Origin: Pseudomonadota bacterium
GTDB taxonomy: Bacteria; Pseudomonadota; Gammaproteobacteria; Steroidobacterales; JBCBZW01
Reading direction: 5' to 3'
Length of the DNA stretch: 35,554 bases
NCBI GenBank assembly: GCA_039815145.1
Contig: JBCBZW010000045.1
Location: 1 to 35,554 of the forward strand
Within the stretch, counting starts at the first letter, position 1; the number at the start of each line of letters is the position of its first letter. Positions 1,262-10,998 of this stretch are shown piece by piece. Made by a program: the position numbers and the translations under genes. The notes below the pieces were generated by a model. The model was not told the DNA's origin, did not search any database, and saw only the letters and a program-made list of their open reading frames with translations.

Positions 1262-2437
1262 TCAATAGCCGGCGAGTTCCAAGTACCCTCGGCCGCTGAT
1301 CGTCTTCTCACCCTGCCGCCCGGTGACGTCCACGGCGCCTTCCCAGTAGCGCGTCGCCAGGTTCAGCTCCTGATCCTCGAGCGCCGCCCTGACCTCGAGA
1401 GCCAAGTCGTCGGCAGGCAGGCGCAGGGTCCAGCTTACCGGGTACTCGACCCCGCTGTTGGCGGAGCGCCAACGCGTCCGCGGGGTCAACTCCACGTCGT
1501 CGCCCTGGAGCCGCCTCACCTGCCACTGACCTGCCTCATCGTAGCCAGCGAGCGTGCCCGCGCTCCAGCGCGTCGACGCGCCCTGCGCCGTGCGCAGGCG
1601 GTAGAACATCAGGTCTCGCCCATCGTCGAGCTGTAGGGAAAACCAATCCCAGCCGGCCACGCCGGGAGCCAGGAAGCTGGTGCCCCACTCGCGATCGAAC
1701 CAACTCGTGCCCGTCACCTCGTGACGGGTGCCGCCAGCGTGCACAGTGCCCGTCGAACGCAAGCGCGTGAGGGAGTAGTAGGCGGAGGCGTTGGTGGGGT
1801 CATCTCCCTTACGGCTGTAGCCGTCCACCCCTTGGCGCACGATGGGCCGCTCGGCGACCAGGGACAGGTCGATACCCATCGACTCGTCCTGGAACTGGAG
1901 GTTTACCGCAAAGGCCGCGTCGTCGGCCGCGCCGGCGATCGACCAATCCTCCACCCAGACCCGCAACGGCTCGGTCTGCGCACCCGCCAGGCCCAGGGCA
2001 TCGCGCGCGAAGCGATCGGCCGCGGCAAACGTTCGGCCATCGATGTCGGATACGGCGAGGTGGGCCATGTACAGCTGCTCCGTGCGCCAGGCGGACGGCT
2101 CCTCGTCTCCCCCCGTGCTGCTGCCATCATCCCCGAGGGCGAAGCGGAAGATCGTCGCCTGGTAGCCGAAGCGCCGCCCCTGCGCCGTGGCCAGGTTGCC
2201 CGTGAAGTACCACCACTCCTGGCGGTACTCGGGGTGCGCGCCGTGATCGCGAGGGAAGCGCAGATCGGGCGCCGCGGTGACCTTCAGGAAGTCCTCATCG
2301 CCGCTCTGGGCACCGAGGGCGCGGTCGAGGGCGAGGCCACCGTCGCCCCCCCGCGGCGACTCCCCGGGCGCACACGCGACGAGGCAAAGGGCGAACCCAC
2401 AACCCGCAAGCGCCGACCACCACCTGGTCCTACTCAT
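1262..2437 (-). CDS. AttH/CrtC-like lipocalin-fold secreted lipoprotein
   Basis: 391 residues from the ATG at 2437. This start overlaps the permease stop by four bases (ATGA), so I prefer it over upstream in-frame starts. The N-terminus has a short hydrophobic stretch ending in LCLVACAP, a plausible lipobox, so the mature protein is probably a lipoprotein. The hallmark EWWYFTGNL follows roughly 70 residues later, and the protein ends in ISGRGYLELAGY. Both are typical of the 'predicted secreted hydrolase' family (AttH, related to the carotenoid hydratase CrtC), which forms two lipocalin-like barrels. In Agrobacterium AttH is encoded with ABC transporter genes, as here. No carotenoid genes are nearby, so a CrtC-type hydratase role is unlikely. 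The likely role is handling a lipophilic substrate at the envelope together with the adjacent transporter; the biochemical activity is not established for the family. Confidence 0.88.
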   Translation of the reverse strand: MSRTRWWSALAGCGFALCLVACAPGESPRGGDGGLALDRALGAQSGDEDFLKVTAAPDLRFPRDHGAHPEYRQEWWYFTGNLATAQGRRFGYQATIFRFALGDDGSSTGGDEEPSAWRTEQLYMAHLAVSDIDGRTFAAADRFARDALGLAGAQTEPLRVWVEDWSIAGAADDAAFAVNLQFQDESMGIDLSLVAERPIVRQGVDGYSRKGDDPTNASAYYSLTRLRSTGTVHAGGTRHEVTGTSWFDREWGTSFLAPGVAGWDWFSLQLDDGRDLMFYRLRTAQGASTRWSAGTLAGYDEAGQWQVRRLQGDDVELTPRTRWRSANSGVEYPVSWTLRLPADDLALEVRAALEDQELNLATRYWEGAVDVTGRQGEKTISGRGYLELAGY

Positions 2438-4983
2438 GCGCGCCCCGGCGTCAGGTCGCTGGCCTGCAGGCGCTGGCGCAGGCGCCAGGCGGGCCACGCC
2501 GCAGCCAACACGGCGGCAACCACCGCCAGGGCCAGGGTGCCGAGCATCGGGGTGAGGGTGAAGTGAGGCGCCATGGTCCACCCGAAGGAGCGCACGTTGA
2601 CCACGTAGATCAGCATCAGTCCGATCAGCAGCCCCGCGGGAATCGCGCACACCCCCGCGAAGGCGCCGAGGGCCCCACTCTCGGTGAGCAGCGAGCGAGC
2701 GATTTCATTCGGTGTCACGCCGAGCGCGCGCAGCACGGCGAACTGCGCATAGCGGTCCAGCAGCAAGGCGAGCAGCGCGTTGATAGTCCCCGCAAACGCG
2801 ACCAGGGCGGCGAGCACGCGCAGCACCTCGGTAATGGTGAACGTGCGCGCGAATACCTCCAGAGATAGGGCGATCAGCGACTCGCGCGAGCGCAGCAACA
2901 CGGGGCGGGTGCGTTGCTGTTCTTCGGCCCAGGCGGTGAGCGCTGCGTCGCTCTGCGCGCGATCCGCCGCTGGATCGAGGTAGACGCCGATGCCTTCCAC
3001 CGTGTCGCGCGTGGGAAAGTGGCCGACGAAGGTGGCCTCGCTCATCGCGATCGTGCCGTGCTCAGAGCCGTAGTCGCGGTACACGGCCCCAACCTCGAAG
3101 GGGCGCTCCCCGTTCGCCGTGCGCAAGGGAATGCTGTCGCCCACACGCAGCCCTCGCTTGTAAGCAAGCGTCTGGGTCACCATCACCACCGGTTCGCTCG
3201 CGAAGCGAGGCCAGAAGCGCTGCGGGTCCCCTTCCAGCAGGATGAAGCCGCGTCGGGCCCGCTCGTTCAAGGAGTAGGCCACGATACGATCGTGGCCGCT
3301 GGCAGTTTCCACCGTGTTCCAGCGCACGGTGCTCACATCGGCCACGCCTGGCTTGGCGGCGAGAGACGCCACGTCCGCCTGGGTGATCACCCGCGGCTGC
3401 TCACCCGCCACGTAGTAGTCGGCGGCGAGGACGCTATCGAGCCAGCTGACCACCGCGCGCTCGAAGCTCGCGATCATCAAGGTGATACCCAAGCTGGTAC
3501 CCAACGCCACGATTAGGGCCGCGAGGGCGGGAGCGGAACGGTGCAGGTGCGCCCCGACGCTGCGCACGGCAAGGCGTTGCAAGCTGAGGTCCGCGGCAGC
3601 AGCGGCGCGACGCGCGAACAGGCGCCGAGCCAGCCACGGCGCCTGGGCTGTGAAGCCGAGCAGCAGCAGGAACAGACCGACGAAGGCGGCAGTGACCTGC
3701 CCCGGCGTAACCAGCACCAGCACCAAGCCGCAGGCGATCGCCGCGAGCCCCGCAACGGCGAGACGCCCCCACAGGCCCTCGGCCTCGCGTGGCATCACGT
3801 CGTGGTTGCGCAGGTGCTCGACGGTGGCCCCCCGCACGGCTTCGCGCGCGGGCAGAACGGCCGCGAGCAGGCTGACGCCGACACCCAAGGCGCTCAAGCG
3901 CGCAAGCTGCCCCAAGCCCATCGGCGGCAGGGACGCGCTGACCGTCGCGTACAGGTCCGCCGACGTGCGCCCCATGAGACCCATCATCAACTGGGCCAGG
4001 GCACTTCCCGCGACCAGGCCGAGGATCGTGCCGATGACGCCGAGGGCGCACGCTTCCAGCAACACGGCGACGAAGATCTCCCGCGAGGTCACGCCCATCG
4101 TGCGCAGAATCGCGAACTCGCGCCGGCGCCGCACCACCAGAAAGGTCTCGGTGTTGAAGATCAGCATCGCGCCCACCAGCAGCGTGAGCAGGGAGAGCGC
4201 GGTGAGGTTCAGGTGAAAGGATTGGGAGAGGTCGAGCACGTTGGCCGCCCGCTGCTCACCCGTGAGCAGTTCCGTGCCCGGTGGCAACATCCCAAGTTGT
4301 TCGAGGGCGGTCAACTGGGCGGGCGTCGGTGACAGATCGATACGGGTCAGTTGCCCCTGGCGGCCGAGCACCTCCTGCGCCGTGGCGATATCGCTGAGCA
4401 GCAACCCCTCCCACGCCGCATCGCCAGCGGCGGTCACGTCGAGCACCGCGGCCACCGTGGGTGCGTGTGACCCATCGCCGGTGAGCGGCAAGCGATCGCC
4501 CACCGTCACCCCCAGGCGCTGCGCGAAGGACTGCGCCAGCACGACGCTGCGCGCCCCCGGCAACAGCGGCGCTCCCTGCAGCTCGCCGTCGCCGACCTCG
4601 CCCATCCAGGGCGGTGCCAGGCTGTCGGCAGCTAACGCAGCCGTCAGGTCGATACCGACCAGGCGCGCGCGTACGGCGCCTGCAGACAGGGTCACGGGCC
4701 CCTGCACCACGGGCATCGCCCGGCGGACGCCGAGCTCCACGCGCAGGGTGCGGTACACCGCCTCATCGACCCCGCTCACGCCACCCACCACATGGTGAGA
4801 AAAGGGCCCGGCGAGCAGATCCACGGAGGCTTCCAGATTGCGCCGCGAGGCGTCGATGGCGCGATCGACGGCGGTCACCACCGCCACCCCGAGCGCCACG
4901 CCCAGCACCGCCAGCAAGCCGAACACCGGCTGGCGCAGCCCCGAACGCGCGAAGCTGCGTAGCTGCAGCGCCAGCGCACTCAC
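2434..4983 (-). CDS. ABC transporter permease, FtsX/MacB type (AttF/AttG-like)
   Basis: 849 residues starting at GTG 4983, which overlaps the ATPase stop (GTGA). An ATG at 5025 would add 14 residues inside the ATPase gene and is less likely. The layout is a membrane segment at the N-terminus (GLLAVLGVALGVAVVTAVDR), a periplasmic MacB-type domain, a first FtsX block of three helices, a middle pair of hydrophobic segments, a second membrane segment and periplasmic domain, and a final FtsX block ending near the C-terminus. This duplicated arrangement of about ten helices characterises large permeases of the LolD-associated or AttFG group. It probably works with the ATPase encoded just upstream to move or extract hydrophobic envelope material, with the downstream AttH-like protein as partner. 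The C-terminus overlaps the next gene by four bases, indicating translational coupling. Confidence 0.9.
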   Translation of the reverse strand: MSALALQLRSFARSGLRQPVFGLLAVLGVALGVAVVTAVDRAIDASRRNLEASVDLLAGPFSHHVVGGVSGVDEAVYRTLRVELGVRRAMPVVQGPVTLSAGAVRARLVGIDLTAALAADSLAPPWMGEVGDGELQGAPLLPGARSVVLAQSFAQRLGVTVGDRLPLTGDGSHAPTVAAVLDVTAAGDAAWEGLLLSDIATAQEVLGRQGQLTRIDLSPTPAQLTALEQLGMLPPGTELLTGEQRAANVLDLSQSFHLNLTALSLLTLLVGAMLIFNTETFLVVRRRREFAILRTMGVTSREIFVAVLLEACALGVIGTILGLVAGSALAQLMMGLMGRTSADLYATVSASLPPMGLGQLARLSALGVGVSLLAAVLPAREAVRGATVEHLRNHDVMPREAEGLWGRLAVAGLAAIACGLVLVLVTPGQVTAAFVGLFLLLLGFTAQAPWLARRLFARRAAAAADLSLQRLAVRSVGAHLHRSAPALAALIVALGTSLGITLMIASFERAVVSWLDSVLAADYYVAGEQPRVITQADVASLAAKPGVADVSTVRWNTVETASGHDRIVAYSLNERARRGFILLEGDPQRFWPRFASEPVVMVTQTLAYKRGLRVGDSIPLRTANGERPFEVGAVYRDYGSEHGTIAMSEATFVGHFPTRDTVEGIGVYLDPAADRAQSDAALTAWAEEQQRTRPVLLRSRESLIALSLEVFARTFTITEVLRVLAALVAFAGTINALLALLLDRYAQFAVLRALGVTPNEIARSLLTESGALGAFAGVCAIPAGLLIGLMLIYVVNVRSFGWTMAPHFTLTPMLGTLALAVVAAVLAAAWPAWRLRQRLQASDLTPGRA

Positions 4984-5675
4984 GCGGGTGCGTCCTCGAC
5001 GATCTGCTGATCCTGCAGATGACACACCCGGTCCGCGCGGCCCATCACCTCGGCGCTATGCGTCGCCATGACCAGGGCCACGCCCCGCTCACGCACGAGC
5101 TCCTGCAAGAAGTCCAGCACCTGCCGGGCGGTCTCGAGATCGAGATTGCCCGTGGGTTCATCCGCGATCACCAGGGCGGGCGTATGGATCAGCGCACGCC
5201 CCACCGCCACCCGCTGCTGTTCGCCGCCGGAGAGCTCGGACGGGTAGCGAGCACCCTTGTTGGCCAACCCGAGACGATCCAACATCGACACCACCTGCGG
5301 CTCCCGTGCGCCGACGGCCACGTCGTTCAGGGCGAGGGGCAGGGTGAGGTTCTCCGCCACGGTCAAGGTGGGAATCAGGTTGAAGGACTGGAACACGAAG
5401 CCCAGCTGCGCTCGACGCAGGCGGGCGCGCTGCTGTTCATTGCCCGCCCACAGGGAATGCCCCGCCAGCTCCACCTCCCCGCGGTCCGGGGGTTCGAGTC
5501 CGCCGAGCACGTTCAGAAAGGTGGTCTTGCCCGAGCCGCTGCGCCCCAGGAGCACGACGAACTCCCCTGCCCTCGCCGCAAAACGCACATCGCGGAGCAC
5601 GGCTACGGGAGACGCTGACCTCACGCCGTAGGTCTTGTACAGTGCCCTACAGCGGACCGTGACAGGTGTGGCCAA
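4980..5675 (-). CDS. ABC transporter ATP-binding protein (LolD/AttE-like)
   Basis: 231 residues, a single nucleotide-binding domain of normal LolD/MacB-class length. Walker A is GRSGSGKT at residues 44-51, the Q-loop glutamine is near 96, the signature LSGGEQQR is at 148-155, and Walker B with catalytic Glu (IADEPTGNLD) is around 170-179. The H-loop ATHSAEV follows. I place the start at TTG 5675 because a GGAGGG ribosome-binding site lies seven bases before it, and no better ATG is available. The protein is cytoplasmic and powers the FtsX-type permease whose GTG start overlaps its stop. Together with that permease and the AttH-like lipoprotein it forms a three-gene export or extraction module. 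The 33 bases to the divergent gene at 5709 must hold the promoter or overlap the neighbour's 5' end. Confidence 0.93.
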   Translation of the reverse strand: MATPVTVRCRALYKTYGVRSASPVAVLRDVRFAARAGEFVVLLGRSGSGKTTFLNVLGGLEPPDRGEVELAGHSLWAGNEQQRARLRRAQLGFVFQSFNLIPTLTVAENLTLPLALNDVAVGAREPQVVSMLDRLGLANKGARYPSELSGGEQQRVAVGRALIHTPALVIADEPTGNLDLETARQVLDFLQELVRERGVALVMATHSAEVMGRADRVCHLQDQQIVEDAPA

Positions 5676-5708: not shown

Positions 5709-7691
5709 ATGAAAAATATAATCAGTGAGTTACGGATGGATCCTAGCAGACTCGGTGATCTCCCCAGAAGCGTTCTGGTAGCTCTGGTGGCGCTATTTGC
5801 TGCCGCCGCGTCCGCCCAGGAAGACGGGCCGTGCGTGCTCGATGAACCCGGACGAGAAGCCTTCTTCGGCGACGTCCACGTGCACACCCGCCTGTCCTTC
5901 GACTCGTACATCTTCGACAACGCCCTCGGTCCGGATGACGCCTACCGGGCGGCGCGCGGGGAACTGGTGCTGTTGTCGCCGGCGGTCCCCGACGAGGCGC
6001 CGCGAGAGTTCCAGCTGGACGGTCCGCCCCTGGACTTCGCCGCCGTCACCGATCATTCGGACCTCCTCGGCGAGACCAACCTGTGCATCTCCCCCGGTGC
6101 CGAACCGGACACGTTCATTTCCGACGCGATCGGGCAGGACTTCATCGATCTCGGCCTGATCGAACAGGGCATGCGTTTGATGGAGAACTGCGCCGCCTTC
6201 CGCGCCACCCGCGAGCGCCTGGACAGCATCTTCCTGGCCGAGCTGTGCACCTCGGAACCGAGCGACCGCCAGCTCTGCAACGTGACCAACGCCTACCTCA
6301 CCTCCGCCTGGCGGGAAACGCTGGAAGCGGCCGACAACGCGTACGCCCCGTGCACCTTCACCACCTTCGCGGGCTACGAGTACACGGGCAACAACGCGGA
6401 GAGCGGACGCATCGCGCGCAACCACCGCAACGCGCTGTTCCGCGACACGGCACCGCTCATCGCCGAAACCGGGGAGCTCAACCTGCTGCCCGTCTCGCGC
6501 GATGACGTGTTCCTGGCCTCGCGCTTCCGCGACATCCTGCGCGAGGAATGCCTGGGGATCGAGGGCGATCCGGAACATCCGGGCTTGCCCGGTTGCGACG
6601 TGCTCGCCATCCCGCACACCACCAACGCCAGCCTCGGCACCGCCTTCGAACTCGCGGAAGACGAGACCGAGTCGGCGCGCCTCGCGATGGAGCCGCTGAT
6701 CGAAGTCCTGCAGCACAAGCAGAGCAGCGAGTGCTCCCCGAGCAGCGCACCACAGGACCCTGGCTGCGACTTCGAACCGTACGTCCCCGCCCCCGACGAA
6801 TGGGCGCTCGCGGCCACCCAGGGCATGATTCGCAGCGGCCTGAACCGGGGCATGCGCGATGCCTTCCTCTCCGGGGGCGTGAACGCCTTTACCTACGGCT
6901 TCATCGCCGGCACGGACACCCACAACAGCACCCCGGGAGCCGTCGCCGAGAGCAACTTCCTGGGCCACGTCGGCTTGCTGGATTCCACCCGCACCAAGCG
7001 CTTGTCCTCCAGCAACGTCACCTTCAACCCCGGCGGGCTCGCAGGCGTTTGGGCGCAGACCAACACGCGCGACGATATCTTCGACGCCTTTCGCCAACGC
7101 GAGACCTTCGCCACCAGCGGCCCGCGCATCACCCTGCGCACGGCCGCCAACTGGCGCTCCGGCCCGCCCCTGGAGGACAACCCCAAGGGCCTGTGCCGTC
7201 AGCTACAACGCGATGAACTGGCCAACGTCACGCCCATGGGCAGCTACCTGCCAGCGCTGCCCGAACCGACAGCGCGCCCACAACTGCTCATCGTGGCTGG
7301 CGCGGACCCTGAGAGCGCCAGCCTAGGGGACGTGCACATCGTGCGCGCGCGAATCAACGCCGCTGGCAACGTCGAGGAGTCGGTGGTGGTCCTCCCCTCG
7401 CCGCCCGACGGGGTCCGGCAGATCTGCCGTGCGTGGATGGACGAGGAATTCGATCCCCTGCACCCCGCCTATTACTACGTTCGCGTGCTGCAGGAGCCCA
7501 CGGCCCGTTACTCCAAACGCCAGTGCAACGTCGTCGCCGACCAGTGGAGTTGTGAGAACCCGGAAGACCTCGAGGGCCCCTACGCGGCCTGCTGCGATGA
7601 CGAGTACTACAAGGACATCCAGGAGCGCGCCTGGGCCTCGCCCATCTACTTCGATCCGAGCGTGTCCGCTGCCGTCGCGTCCTCGCCCTGA
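5709..7691 (+). CDS. DUF3604 family secreted protein with PHP-like metal-binding motifs
   Basis: Up to 660 residues. A signal peptide (SVLVALVALFAAAASAQ) ends near residue 37, so the product is exported. Seen directly: GDVHVHT with paired His at 57 and 59, VTDHSD at 114-118, IPHTTN with His 303, and GTDTHN with Asp 403 and His 405. This spacing of His/Asp motifs is what PHP-superfamily metal-dependent phosphoesterases use, and DUF3604 proteins share such motifs; no reaction is established. The C-terminal part is rich in cysteines, including a CC pair near residue 635. The start is uncertain: ATG 5709 gives an extended n-region, while ATG 5736 gives a more standard signal peptide, and a TATAAT box lies between them. 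The next gene begins six bases after the stop, so the pair is probably cotranscribed. Confidence 0.88.
   Translation: MKNIISELRMDPSRLGDLPRSVLVALVALFAAAASAQEDGPCVLDEPGREAFFGDVHVHTRLSFDSYIFDNALGPDDAYRAARGELVLLSPAVPDEAPREFQLDGPPLDFAAVTDHSDLLGETNLCISPGAEPDTFISDAIGQDFIDLGLIEQGMRLMENCAAFRATRERLDSIFLAELCTSEPSDRQLCNVTNAYLTSAWRETLEAADNAYAPCTFTTFAGYEYTGNNAESGRIARNHRNALFRDTAPLIAETGELNLLPVSRDDVFLASRFRDILREECLGIEGDPEHPGLPGCDVLAIPHTTNASLGTAFELAEDETESARLAMEPLIEVLQHKQSSECSPSSAPQDPGCDFEPYVPAPDEWALAATQGMIRSGLNRGMRDAFLSGGVNAFTYGFIAGTDTHNSTPGAVAESNFLGHVGLLDSTRTKRLSSSNVTFNPGGLAGVWAQTNTRDDIFDAFRQRETFATSGPRITLRTAANWRSGPPLEDNPKGLCRQLQRDELANVTPMGSYLPALPEPTARPQLLIVAGADPESASLGDVHIVRARINAAGNVEESVVVLPSPPDGVRQICRAWMDEEFDPLHPAYYYVRVLQEPTARYSKRQCNVVADQWSCENPEDLEGPYAACCDDEYYKDIQERAWASPIYFDPSVSAAVASSP
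5717..5722 (+). promoter_or_regulatory. Perfect TATAAT box, candidate -10 for the DUF3604 unit
   Basis: A consensus -10 hexamer sits in an unusually AT-rich patch (about 5699-5730) between two divergent genes. No good -35 is present 17 bases upstream, so the call rests on the -10 alone. If real, transcription would start near 5729, downstream of ATG 5709, making ATG 5736 the true start with a very short leader. Confidence 0.35.
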
Positions 7692-7697
7692 GCGCCC

Positions 7698-8573
7698 GTG
7701 AGTAAAGACGGCGCTCCCCCACGTCCCCTCTGGGCTGACCCCTTCGTCCTGTTCGCCCTTGGCGGTGTCGTGCTGTTCGCGATCGCCACGGCCCTCGAGC
7801 GTGCGGCCGAGGCGGGGGACGCGGAGCGGCCGAAGCAGCTGCTCATCACCCACGCCAAGCAGGCAGAGCTGCGCACGCAGTTTCAGCGCGCCAACGGTCG
7901 CGCCCCCACGGAGCAGGAACACGCCGGGTCTATCGAACGCCACGTACGCGAGCGCATTCTCTTCGAGCAAGCCATCGAGTGGGACATGCATCGCAACGAT
8001 GTGGTGGTGCGCCGCCGCCTGGTCGAGCGCGTACGCATGCTCTTCGGCAACTACGCCGAGACGGATCGCGATGAGACCGATCTGCAGGCCACCTACGAGA
8101 AGTACCAGGAACGCTTTCTGACACCTCCCGCCATCGGCTTTCGCCAGATCTTCATCGATCGCGACGTGCATGGGGAGGCCAGCCTCGAGCGCGCCCGCGA
8201 TTTGCGACAAACGCTGCAGCGCACAGGCAGCGCCGAGGGAGACCTCTGGTACCAGGCGCCCACGGAGGCCGTGCGCAGCCTGCCGCGCATCGCCGCCATG
8301 ATGGGGCAGGAATTCGCCACCGCCCTGGACCTGCTTCCCGTAAACGAGTGGTCGCCACCCGTGGCTTCGGCCTTCGGCTACCACCTCGTGTTCATCGAGG
8401 AGAAGACGCCCGCCCGCCAGGCGCCCCTGGAGGAGGTGCTGGAGCAGGTATGGGTGCTGCACCGACGGGAGCGTGAGCAGGCGAGCTTCCAGACCTTCAG
8501 CGACCGTCTTCGCGCGCGCTACGAGGTCACCCTCGAGGCACCGCCCCCTGCACTCGCCGATGAAAATCGATAG
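7698..8573 (+). CDS. Membrane-anchored PpiC/parvulin-type peptidyl-prolyl isomerase
   Basis: 291 residues from GTG 7698, six bases after the DUF3604 stop. A single hydrophobic segment (PFVLFALGGVVLFAIATAL, about residues 15-33) anchors the protein in the inner membrane with the rest probably periplasmic. A charged helical region like the SurA/PrsA chaperone arm follows, then a rotamase-like domain from about residue 145 (TPPAIGFRQIFIDRD) to about 255 (PPVASAFGYHLVFIEE). The parvulin fold is recognisable through the closing FGYHLV motif, but the first conserved active-site His is Gln150 here and the usual GGDLG stretch reads GDLWYQ, so isomerase activity may be weak and a chaperone role likelier. 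The gene overlaps the following HupE-like gene by 14 bases. It may assist folding of its exported or membrane neighbours; this is inferred from context only. Confidence 0.83.
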   Translation: MSKDGAPPRPLWADPFVLFALGGVVLFAIATALERAAEAGDAERPKQLLITHAKQAELRTQFQRANGRAPTEQEHAGSIERHVRERILFEQAIEWDMHRNDVVVRRRLVERVRMLFGNYAETDRDETDLQATYEKYQERFLTPPAIGFRQIFIDRDVHGEASLERARDLRQTLQRTGSAEGDLWYQAPTEAVRSLPRIAAMMGQEFATALDLLPVNEWSPPVASAFGYHLVFIEEKTPARQAPLEEVLEQVWVLHRREREQASFQTFSDRLRARYEVTLEAPPPALADENR

Positions 8574-9600
8574 GCCCATTCGGCACGGTTGGTGGGTTGC
8601 AGGCCTCGTCCTGCTGACGCTGGCGCTCGACGCCCAGGCCCACGGCTTCCGCCCCGCGGAGCTAGAGATCGACGAGGTCGGCGCTGGCATCTTCCTGGTG
8701 CGCTGGGCACCGAACGACGCAGCGGAGGCCACGGAGTTCGTGGGCATCGCGCCCCTGCGACTTCACCTCCCCGAGCACTGCGAGCGCACGCGCTTCATCG
8801 GTGACAGCACCGCCGATTACTTTCGCCTCGATTGTGGCGCTGAATCGCTGCTCGGCGGCTGCCTCCGCGTGCAGGGCTTTGCGAGCTCGAACGCCCAGGC
8901 GATCGCGAAGCTGCGCCTGCGTGGCGGCAGTGCGCGAAGCCGCCTGCTCACCTACGGCAACGACACCTGGTGCCTGGACAGCCCGCGAGGCTGGATGGAC
9001 AGCGCCTCAAGCTACTTCTCGGCCGGCCTGAGCCACATCCTGGACGGCGCGGATCACCTGCTGTTCCTGCTCACCCTCGTGCTCATCTTCCGCCGCACCA
9101 CCCTGCGCCTGGCGCTGATCACCGCGTTCACCGTAGGCCACAGCCTCTCCCTCGCCCTGGCGACCCTGGGATGGCTCACACCGCCCATGGCGGCCATCGA
9201 GATCCTGATCGCCTGGACCGTCGCCTTCGCCGCCTACGAGGCCTGTCAGGGCCTCGACCACGACACCTCAGCGCCATCCTCGATCACGCAGAGGCTCCCT
9301 TGGCTCGTCACCGGTGGGTTCGGCTTCGTGCACGGCTTCGGCTTCGCCTCGGCGCTGCGCGAGATCGGCTTCGGCGACGGCGGAGAACTGGTGCTCCCGC
9401 TCCTGTCCTTCAACCTCGGGGTGGAAGCGGGCCAGGTGCTCGTGCTGGCGGTGGTGTTACTGGCGGAGTTCGCCCTGCGCCGGCTGCCCCTCGCCCCCGA
9501 CGATGGTCGACGGTTGGCCCGTGTGGGCGCGGTGGCGATCGGCAGCATCGCCATCTACTGGGTCTTGGAGCGCGGCGCGGACTTGCTGCTGACCGTGTGA
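8560..9600 (+). CDS. HupE/UreJ-family membrane protein
   Basis: 346 residues from ATG 8560, inside the last codons of the isomerase gene. This start gives a clean signal sequence (WWVAGLVLLTLALDAQAHG), unlike an earlier in-frame start at 8473. Residues about 27-145 form an extracytoplasmic domain. The membrane part follows: SHILDGADHLLFLL, a helix with TVGHSLSLALATLG, another around IEILIAWTVAFAAYEA, then a GFGFVHGFGFASAL stretch, a long hydrophobic region and a final helix near the C-terminus. The His/Asp-bearing helices (HILDGADH, VGHS, VHGFGFA) are the HupE/UreJ signature, a family linked to nickel or cobalt uptake in some members. No hydrogenase or urease genes are nearby, so the transported ion, if any, is unknown. 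It is the third member of a tight operon with DUF3604 and PpiC genes. Confidence 0.87.
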   Translation: MKIDRPIRHGWWVAGLVLLTLALDAQAHGFRPAELEIDEVGAGIFLVRWAPNDAAEATEFVGIAPLRLHLPEHCERTRFIGDSTADYFRLDCGAESLLGGCLRVQGFASSNAQAIAKLRLRGGSARSRLLTYGNDTWCLDSPRGWMDSASSYFSAGLSHILDGADHLLFLLTLVLIFRRTTLRLALITAFTVGHSLSLALATLGWLTPPMAAIEILIAWTVAFAAYEACQGLDHDTSAPSSITQRLPWLVTGGFGFVHGFGFASALREIGFGDGGELVLPLLSFNLGVEAGQVLVLAVVLLAEFALRRLPLAPDDGRRLARVGAVAIGSIAIYWVLERGADLLLTV

Positions 9601-9616: not shown

Positions 9617-10309
9617 CTAGCGGTAGCGCGTCGGGTCGGCGATGCCGGCCGCCTCGAACCCCTCGCGCCGCAGCTGGCACGCATCGCAGCGACCGCAAGC
9701 GCGGCCGTCCTCGTCGGCTTGGTAGCAGGAGACGGTCATCGCGTAGTCCACGCCGAGCACTTCGCCGGTGCGAATGATCTGCGCCTTCGACAGCTGGATC
9801 AGGGGCGCCTTGACCTGGATCGCGGCCCCGCTGACGCCCGCCTTAGTCGCCAGGTTGGCGAGGCGCTGGAACTGCTCGACGTACTCGGGGCGACAGTCCG
9901 GATAGCCGGAATAGTCCACGGCATTCATGCCGGCAAAGATGTCTGTGGCGCCGATCACCTCGGCGTAGGCCAGGGCCAGCGATAGCATGACCGTGTTGCG
10001 GGCCGGCACGTAGGTGGCGGGGATCGCTTCCGGGCTGGTGCCCGCATCGGGCACCTCGATGGCCTCGTCGGTCAGGGCGCTGCCGCCGAGGCTCGCGAGG
10101 TCTACCTTCACGACGCGATGGGCGACGGCGCCAAGGGCCGTGGCCACCCGCTCCGCCGCTTGCAGCTCGGCCCGGTGGCGCTGCCCGTAATCGACGCTCA
10201 GGGCATGGCAGGCGTAGCCACCCTCGCGGGCGATGGCCAGCACGGTGGCGGAGTCCAAGCCCCCCGACAGCAACACCACGGCACGCGGCTTTTGCACTGC
10301 GTCGCTCAT
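9617..10309 (-). CDS. queC: 7-cyano-7-deazaguanine synthase
   Basis: 230 residues from ATG 10309, which overlaps the queE stop (ATGA). The enzyme converts 7-carboxy-7-deazaguanine to preQ0 with ATP and ammonia, a cytoplasmic step in queuosine tRNA modification. The PP-loop ATP motif SGGLDS is at residues 15-20. The zinc-binding cysteines near the C-terminus are visible as Cys195, Cys205, Cys208 and Cys211 (ACGRCDAC). Length and motifs agree with bacterial QueC. Earlier in-frame starts would lie inside queE and are rejected. It is the last gene of the Tol-Pal/Ruv block and ends 17 bases from the convergent HupE-like gene. Confidence 0.97.
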
Positions 10310-10998
10310 ACGCCAGGCACGTCGCCCCAGAGGTACTTGTGCAGTTGCACTTGCAAGCGCACGGGCAAGCGGTCGGCGACGATCCAATCGGCGAGGTCGC
10401 GCGGCGCGAGCACCTCGTGGCTCGGCGACAGGAACACCGGACAACGCTCGGCCAACGCGTGCTCGGCGATGAAACGCCGACTCCACTCGTAGTCCGCCCG
10501 GTCGCAGATCACGAACTTGACCCGATCGTTACTGTTCAGAAGCGTTAGGTTGCTAGCGACGTTTCGGTGCACCTCGCCGGAGGCGGGCGTCTTGATGTCC
10601 ACCACGCGCACCACGCGTGGGTCGACCTCACCGATATCCATGGCACCGCTGGTCTCCAGGGAGACGCGATGGCCCGCGTCGCACAGGCGGCCCATCAGGG
10701 TGAGCACGGATCGCTGCGCGAGGGGTTCGCCGCCGGTGACGCAGACGTGCTCGACGCCGTTGGCAGCCACCTGGGCGAGGATCTCATCGAGAGTCTTCAC
10801 CTCGCCCCCGTTGAAGGCGTAGGCCGTATCGCAATAGACGCAGCGCAGGGGGCAGCCGGTGAGCCTGACGAAGGTGGTAGGTGCGCCGGCCGTGTCCGCC
10901 TCGCCCTGCAGGCTCAGGAAGATCTCGCTGATCCGCAGGCGGTCGGCGCCGTGCGCCGACTCTCCGGCTGAGCGCGGCGAGAGCGAGGTGACGCTCAA
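10306..10998 (-). CDS. queE: 7-carboxy-7-deazaguanine synthase (radical SAM)
   Basis: 230 residues. QueE rearranges 6-carboxytetrahydropterin to 7-carboxy-7-deazaguanine using a 4Fe-4S cluster and S-adenosylmethionine. The cluster-binding motif CPLRCVYC gives Cys49, Cys53 and Cys56, and the C-x3-C-x2-C spacing is the standard one. The substrate-binding [11 protein letters not shown] stretch precedes it and the SAM-contacting TGGEP motif follows. The chosen ATG at 10998 leaves a gap of seven bases after cpoB, and its stop overlaps the queC start, so queE and queC are translationally coupled. The first 20 residues are poorly conserved in type, so a slightly later start is possible. Linkage of queE-queC to tol-pal genes is common in gammaproteobacteria. 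Confidence 0.95.

Follow-up and report, generated by a model that had tools for sequence, protein, structure and literature searches.

A widespread DUF3604–PpiC–HupE/UreJ-2 gene trio and a possible role of its parvulin and permease in the maturation of exported PHP-fold proteins

The DNA stretch analyzed here (the window, 35,554 nucleotides) is contig 45 of the 6.0-Mb, 295-contig genome of a gammaproteobacterium (G000). Its plus strand carries a trio of genes for a predicted exported DUF3604 protein of 660 amino acids (5709–7691, ATG start; PF12228, 366 bits, cut-off 20.4), a membrane-anchored parvulin-type protein of 291 amino acids, termed PpiC (7698–8573, GTG start; PF13145, 54.6 bits, cut-off 27), and a HupE/UreJ-2 protein of 346 amino acids (8560–9600, ATG start; PF13795, 143 bits, cut-off 24.5). 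The association of the three genes across genomes is very strong, and PpiC and HupE are a fixed pair; we tentatively favor the reading that this pair is dedicated to the maturation of exported DUF3604 enzymes. The layout described in an earlier sequence-only reading, i.e., three same-strand genes with a 6-base gap between the DUF3604 and PpiC genes (7692–7697) and a 14-base overlap of the PpiC and HupE genes (8560–8573), is confirmed by the coordinates and Pfam scores.

Co-occurrence was assessed in a class sample of 229 genomes and a phylum sample of 398 genomes, the latter being the larger and more independent test. In the phylum sample, where matches were listed at E values of 1e-25 (PpiC, DUF3604) or 1e-45 (HupE), PpiC and DUF3604 were each found in 26 genomes and both together in 25 (hypergeometric 2e-37, without correction for relatedness). 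The matching DUF3604 gene lay within 3.3 kb of 27 of the 30 PpiC copies, on the same strand in 25 of these 27; in two further genomes the genes co-occur unlinked, DUF3604 being located on another contig (G517) or 41 kb away (G479). One genome counted for DUF3604, G380, contains only a short remnant with a stop. A triad-type HupE followed 0–94 bases 3' of PpiC in all 30 copies, as measured from profile ends, and the listed scores with the HupE profile A4 fell from 274 to 216 bits right after these 30. At most 6, 3 and 5 candidates per genome were scored for the three families, and DUF3604 copy counts are lower bounds. The DUF3604 entry of the window was added from the class-sample scan; G000 is the only genome among the phylum-sample hits that also supplied profiles, A4 having been built from the window and the named triads.

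Within the class sample, PF13795 proteins were present in 67 and DUF3604 proteins in 23 of the 229 genomes. With profile A3, which represents the triad PpiC, 12 genomes scored at least 206 bits before the score dropped to 80 bits; this gap favors the 12 genomes because 11 of them supplied the profile, and the 80-bit gene itself sits between a HupE gene and a divergent DUF3604-like gene. All 12 genomes fall within 16 genomes with strong DUF3604 matches (hypergeometric 6e-17, likewise uncorrected), the 16 being a chosen subset of the 23 from which G003, G012, G033, G046, G104, G112 and G221 were dropped.

A scan of 72,556 plasmid records returned 78 records with DUF3604, 78 with PpiC and 87 with HupE matches; the overlaps given here use 74, 69 and 59 of these, respectively, with the HupE entry of NZ_CP013573 left out. 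DUF3604 is also listed for 63 of the 69 PpiC plasmids, invariably within 2.4 kb and on the same strand, and PpiC and HupE are adjacent in 52 of the 52 records listed for both. The side of DUF3604 varies (upstream in 46, downstream in 17 of the listed plasmids) while the order PpiC-HupE is constant. Five of the six PpiC plasmids without a listed DUF3604 were inspected, CP141945 being the exception: NC_012852 has a DUF3604 gene beside the pair, CP049029 codes for a shortened DUF3604 protein of 206 amino acids, and no DUF3604 was seen in the stretches inspected of CP081100, CP123586 and CP099604. Strain M382 carries the PpiC-HupE pair on plasmid CP081100 and DUF3604 on plasmid CP081101. Eleven listed DUF3604 plasmids lack a listed PpiC; in the two inspected, CP049030 and CP014600, none was found nearby.

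Among the named loci, which are the best 80 of at least 572 confirmed DUF3604 loci, 23 contain a triad PpiC, and 18 of these 23 also a HupE, with two more ending at the contig end. Their sources are Gammaproteobacteria (Solimonas, Hydrocarboniphaga, Sinimarinibacterium), Alphaproteobacteria, Myxococcota and Acidobacteriota, and the trio was also found in Sinorhizobium fredii NGR234, Rhizobium, Roseibium and Pseudoalteromonas, many copies being located on rhizobial and roseobacterial plasmids. The neighborhood, which the sequence-only reading placed in marine gammaproteobacteria, reaches beyond these to alphaproteobacteria, Myxococcota and Acidobacteriota; the link it drew between the three families was put to the co-occurrence check and stood (25 shared genomes; PpiC-HupE in 30 of 30 copies). 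PpiC lies 5' of HupE, whereas DUF3604 can be located on either side of the pair or run divergently. Some pairs are accompanied by several DUF3604 genes, namely two in L032, L033, L034, L036 and L182 and six in L198. Distance matrices of 33 trios are correlated (Mantel r 0.55–0.74, 0 of 2000 permutations as high), a result that relatedness alone could yield. Some gene starts were misplaced by the gene caller used, and the HupE gene of L038 escaped it. A chance neighborhood was considered and rejected, linkage being far above chance in the class, phylum and plasmid counts.

The HupE partners of PpiC also form a coherent group. In a tree of those 97 of the 123 PF13795 hits that reached 80 bits and 230 residues, calculated by a quick method and containing long branches, all 34 HupEs adjoining PpiC fall inside one group of 36 (Shimodaira-Hasegawa-like approximate likelihood ratio test, 99). 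PpiC adjacency changes only 3 times on the tree, compared with a mean of 28 upon shuffling (0 of 500 shuffles as low). The two additional members are from G138 and G186, whose DUF3604 is on another contig; in G138, DUF3604 and PpiC share a contig without an adjacent HupE, and the HupE of the triad clade is on a different one. A second tree with six added sequences gave no starred set for those triad-clade members that it displayed. HupEs beside SoxB, DUF4331 or DUF4198 are placed elsewhere. Of 104 mapped loci, 16 have a SoxB cluster adjoined by a member of a separate PF13795 group (L082, L086, L087, L092, L097, L098, L099, L102, L103, L105, L107, L109, L112, L117, L120 and L122), 11 of them divergent; one representative of this cluster was confirmed as SoxB (TIGR04486, 723 bits). 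Tandem PF13795 pairs occur in 10 loci (L080, L081, L089, L095, L100, L101, L106, L108, L110 and L121), preceded by a DUF4331 gene in 8 of these, and one member of each pair belongs to a very long-branched group.

The AlphaFold2 model of the DUF3604 protein (mean predicted local distance difference test score 87.2) was compared with known structures using VIA-align. The top 17 matches, with Z scores from 15.8 to 7.2, are PHP-domain proteins, followed by a match with Z 4.2; several of the 17 represent one protein repeatedly, and the PHP domain is stated in the titles of some; EndoQ, the Pol III entries and 9qrn are PHP-domain proteins as well. The best match, 3e38 (Z 15.8, 3.2 Å across 226 residues), was likewise retrieved by Foldseek (E 3e-5); others are EndoQ 5zb8 (Z 11.6), 3o0f (Z 10.5), RNase AM 7ug9 (Z 9.1), 2yb1 with bound Mn, AMP and phosphate (Z 9.0), and Pol III entries. 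A stretch at 5877–6923 (plus strand) codes for nine candidate metal ligands, H57, H59, D65, H116, E224, H239, H303, D403 and H405, which are invariant in 38 aligned sequences and match the PHP ligand pattern (HxH, Asp, His, Glu, His, His, DxH). A C-terminal β-sandwich comprises approximately residues 472–650. A PDB sequence search with the DUF3604 profile gave nothing significant, and NCBIfam provided no name for either the DUF3604 or the HupE protein of the window. The model indicates a PHP-fold protein that is probably a metal-dependent enzyme; the metal dependence proposed by the sequence-only reading is thus supported by fold and candidate ligands, as a predicted activity. When the N-termini of 33 triad DUF3604 proteins were inspected by eye, 30 lacked a pair of arginines before the hydrophobic stretch, suggesting that most would be Sec substrates which fold and take up metal in the periplasm.

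PpiC of the window, which scores 324 bits with profile A3, resembles SurA, PrsA and Cell-binding factor 2 of Campylobacter, and weakly NifM. Its rotamase domain is above the Pfam cut-off, and H229 is invariant in alignments A3 and A6.

The HupE protein, which scores 349 bits with profile A4, combines a periplasmic anglerase-like domain (residues 28–139; 8641–8976, plus strand), predicted to fold like ZrgA and PA4063, with a HupE/UreJ-2 transmembrane domain (residues 145–345; 8992–9594, plus strand). Cleavage of the predicted signal peptide between AQA and H, a position judged by eye, would put His28, the first residue of the periplasmic domain, at the N-terminus of the mature protein. A His follows the signal peptide in 8 of 8 HupEs of alignment A2 and in 17 of 18 complete N-termini of A4 (Asp in L182; the L148 sequence lacks its N-terminus). 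Two Cys residues are invariant among triad HupEs, and the His/Asp motifs are kept. For the predicted N-terminal β-sandwich, VIA-align retrieved zinc-binding ZrgA (8ezw, Z 9.8; 8f1b, Z 9.5 over 105 residues) and PA4063 (7aly, Z 9.6); models without a true match usually reach a best Z score just some 2 units below that of ZrgA. Structure 9GCE of RbAng-1a was not among the VIA-align matches, Foldseek gave no match to the HupE model at E 0.001, and a PDB sequence search with the HupE profile gave nothing significant, RbAng-1a included. For the "anglerases" of the type Ang-1-HupE/UreJ-2, described in 2025, the main text of PMC12537917 reports an N-terminal His that is fully conserved in the published set, binding of Cu (dissociation constant 74 nM) and Ni (220 nM) by RbAng-1a, and 8F1B as its closest DALI match, and proposes that these proteins capture metal and take it up. 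This anglerase layout is that of the window HupE, which has a His after the signal peptide, a ZrgA-like domain and a permease and is predicted to bind metal. The metal role that the sequence-only reading had assigned to it gains support from the N-terminal His and the ZrgA-like domain when compared with these proteins.

PF04955, the family of HupE/UreJ nickel permeases, matched the window HupE with 20.4 bits, below its cut-off of 23. An ordinary accessory HupE of a hydrogenase or urease was rejected on the basis of this score and because no hydrogenase or urease is encoded nearby, as the sequence-only reading had already noted: urease-alpha had no match anywhere in G000, and its sole match to a NiFe-hydrogenase large subunit is located on another contig (C44:28986–30413), which also carries a different PF13795 gene some 25 kb away.

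The gene association, which is observed directly, suggests a client–helper relation with help in folding; what we infer about the metal, the direction of its movement, the place of loading and the substrate is less firm than the association itself. DUF3604 would be secreted and its PHP site would acquire metals in the periplasm, where tightly binding metals compete. The membrane-anchored parvulin may help it to fold there, while the anglerase-type HupE may manage a transition metal at the same membrane surface, either handing on the right metal or stripping a competing one, with a correctly loaded DUF3604 site as the outcome. One PpiC-HupE pair might serve several DUF3604 paralogs, which fits the loci with several DUF3604 genes beside one pair and the four DUF3604 genes of G000 with its single triad PpiC. 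The clade of SoxB-adjacent HupEs also speaks for maturation, SoxB being another exported metalloenzyme, with a dimanganese site.

Several observations weigh against a dedicated maturation pair. No triad PpiC was found in 57 of the 80 named loci within the stretch covered, some of which is ended by a contig edge. DUF3604 occurs without the pair in G011, G093, G178 and G186 (some of these genomes being incomplete), in G340, where a divergent DUF3604 is the only one of the two phylum-sample markers, and on a Salipiger plasmid (L210). G000 itself holds four DUF3604 and seven PF13795 genes, both families together on the window contig only, and none of its three other DUF3604 loci has an adjoining PpiC or HupE. 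No DUF3604 was seen with the pair in the stretches inspected of L212, L214 and L215, nor in genome G564, so other clients are possible. The first active-site His of parvulins, whose positions we take from Pin1, is Gln in the window PpiC and in 4 of 11 sequences of A3. An arginine pair in L164, L166 and L207 makes Tat export, and hence metal loading before export, possible for some DUF3604 proteins. Finally, the Cu- and Ni-binding Ang-1 is assigned a proposed uptake role in the main text of PMC12537917, which favors stripping or uptake over delivery; uptake does not readily equate to supplying an enzyme in the periplasm.

A more general version would see PF13795 permeases as partner-specific metallation devices, separate groups each being tied to a single exported partner, namely SoxB, DUF4331 or, together with a parvulin of its own, DUF3604, and the trio as a dedicated periplasmic metal-loading machine in which the isomerase holds the client open and the permease delivers the metal; we consider this rather doubtful. 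The uptake proposal could also be taken at face value: the exported PHP enzyme might degrade an extracellular metal-holding compound, HupE capture and import the freed metal, and the parvulin fold one or both proteins. This is unlikely in our estimation. In its favor, Cu and Ni are bound by anglerase-HupE proteins, for which metal capture and uptake have been proposed (PMC12537917, main text), and the N-domain resembles zinc-binding ZrgA and PA4063. The neighbors of the pair include CobW-type GTPases (L209, L216) and DUF1826 (L215, L216), both of which a figure legend of PMC2770081 names in Zur-regulated clusters. These neighbors hint at zinc, yet no Zur-like site with up to 2 mismatches was found upstream of 133 DUF3604 or 40 PpiC genes and the best scores were like those of shuffles (one core motif used; upstream stretches set from profile ends, not true starts); a Zur-regulated zinc operon was rejected accordingly. 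The pair also adjoins an ABC (ATP-binding cassette) transporter in L212 and L215, its ATPase annotated as dipeptide/oligopeptide/nickel; against metal acquisition, a scheme in which one enzyme supplies one transporter poorly explains why several DUF3604 genes accompany a single pair.

The genes around DUF3604 could instead point to catabolism, with DUF3604 as an exported hydrolase that takes part in degrading lipids or xenobiotics and HupE moving a product or counter-ion rather than a metal. In the 80 named loci (L125–L204), neighbors recognized from their sequences, in raw counts without a background rate, include short-chain dehydrogenases/reductases in 24 loci, luciferase-like monooxygenases in 12, enoyl-CoA hydratases in 11, acyl-CoA ligases, CaiB-type CoA transferases and acyl-CoA dehydrogenases in 7 each, and P450s in 6. 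Genes for DUF1254 proteins and sulfatases also recur close to DUF3604. These neighbors differ between loci, however, whereas PpiC-HupE is constant, and HupE retains the N-terminal His and His/Asp motifs, pointing to metal, so that a catabolic module appears quite improbable. Mere co-inheritance, with the genes sharing accessory DNA without acting on one another, would be consistent with the many plasmid-borne copies and with distance matrices explicable by relatedness; co-occurrence persists, however, when the genes are unlinked (G517, G479, M382) and across phyla, which makes this explanation very improbable.

In the window, the trio is flanked upstream by a divergent ABC/FtsX operon (2434–5675, minus strand) and downstream by convergent queC (9617–10486, minus strand), beyond which a radical-SAM gene and Tol-Pal genes follow on the minus strand. 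Between 5000 and 11000, no terminator-like sites were found, with 2.3 expected from shuffles; sigma-70-like sites were not found either, but shuffles expect just 0.4, and the result is hence uninformative. Other arrangements were observed elsewhere. In L053:4212–8411 and L056:6500–10901, a second, divergent layout has a small SurA/parvulin-like gene with HupE behind it, and a gene for a DUF3604-like protein of 726–756 amino acids is transcribed in the opposite direction, away from both. A plasmid of Rhodobacteraceae SC52 (L216:2876–10918) codes for a shortened DUF3604 protein of 206 amino acids, a short HupE, PpiC, HupE, two CobW-type GTPases and DUF1826, and the other plasmid of this strain carries two full-length DUF3604 genes. 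On a Comamonadaceae plasmid (L214:3470–9065), the genes adjoining PpiC-HupE code for a PCu(A)C copper chaperone and for spermidine synthase, with no DUF3604 in the stretch. DUF1254-type proteins are encoded close to DUF3604 in L032, L207, L208 and L211.

Our searches of the open-access PubMed Central literature yielded no description of the trio. There, DUF3604 turned up only in an unrelated Chlamydia transposon table; PF12228 and PF13795 were not mentioned, HupE together with a peptidyl-prolyl isomerase in a periplasmic operon was not found, no paper was about SoxB with HupE as judged by title, and the Zur regulon and HupE appeared together in reference lists only. The main text of PMC12537917 does not mention parvulin, peptidyl-prolyl or SoxB. 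Correct metal loading of exported metalloenzymes in the periplasm is still poorly understood, and the trio is a strict, widespread partnership of a PHP enzyme, one parvulin and one metal-type permease, so that insight into it would concern three protein families whose functions are at best partly known.

The trio combines protein types that are themselves known in a new way. DUF3604 has the fold and candidate ligand set of PHP phosphoesterases such as 3e38, 3o0f, 2yb1, RNase AM 7ug9 and the Pol III PHP domain, but differs from these in being a predicted exported protein of more than 600 amino acids with large insertions and a C-terminal β-sandwich. PpiC shares the Rotamase_2 domain and sequence likeness with SurA, PrsA, Cell-binding factor 2 and, weakly, NifM; unlike the SurA/PrsA-type parvulins, it belongs to a separate subfamily (at least 206 bits, then 80) bound to one partner set. 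The HupE and UreJ nickel permeases of PF04955 are weakly similar to the window HupE, which in contrast is a PF13795 protein with an extra periplasmic domain and without a hydrogenase or urease nearby. With Ang-1-HupE/UreJ-2 it shares the signal peptide, the His right after it and the PF13795 permease, and its N-domain is predicted to be a β-sandwich like that of ZrgA 8F1B; whereas the neighbors named for these proteins in the main text of PMC12537917 are DUF4198, indigoidine-type and PfkB proteins, the triad HupE goes with PpiC and DUF3604.

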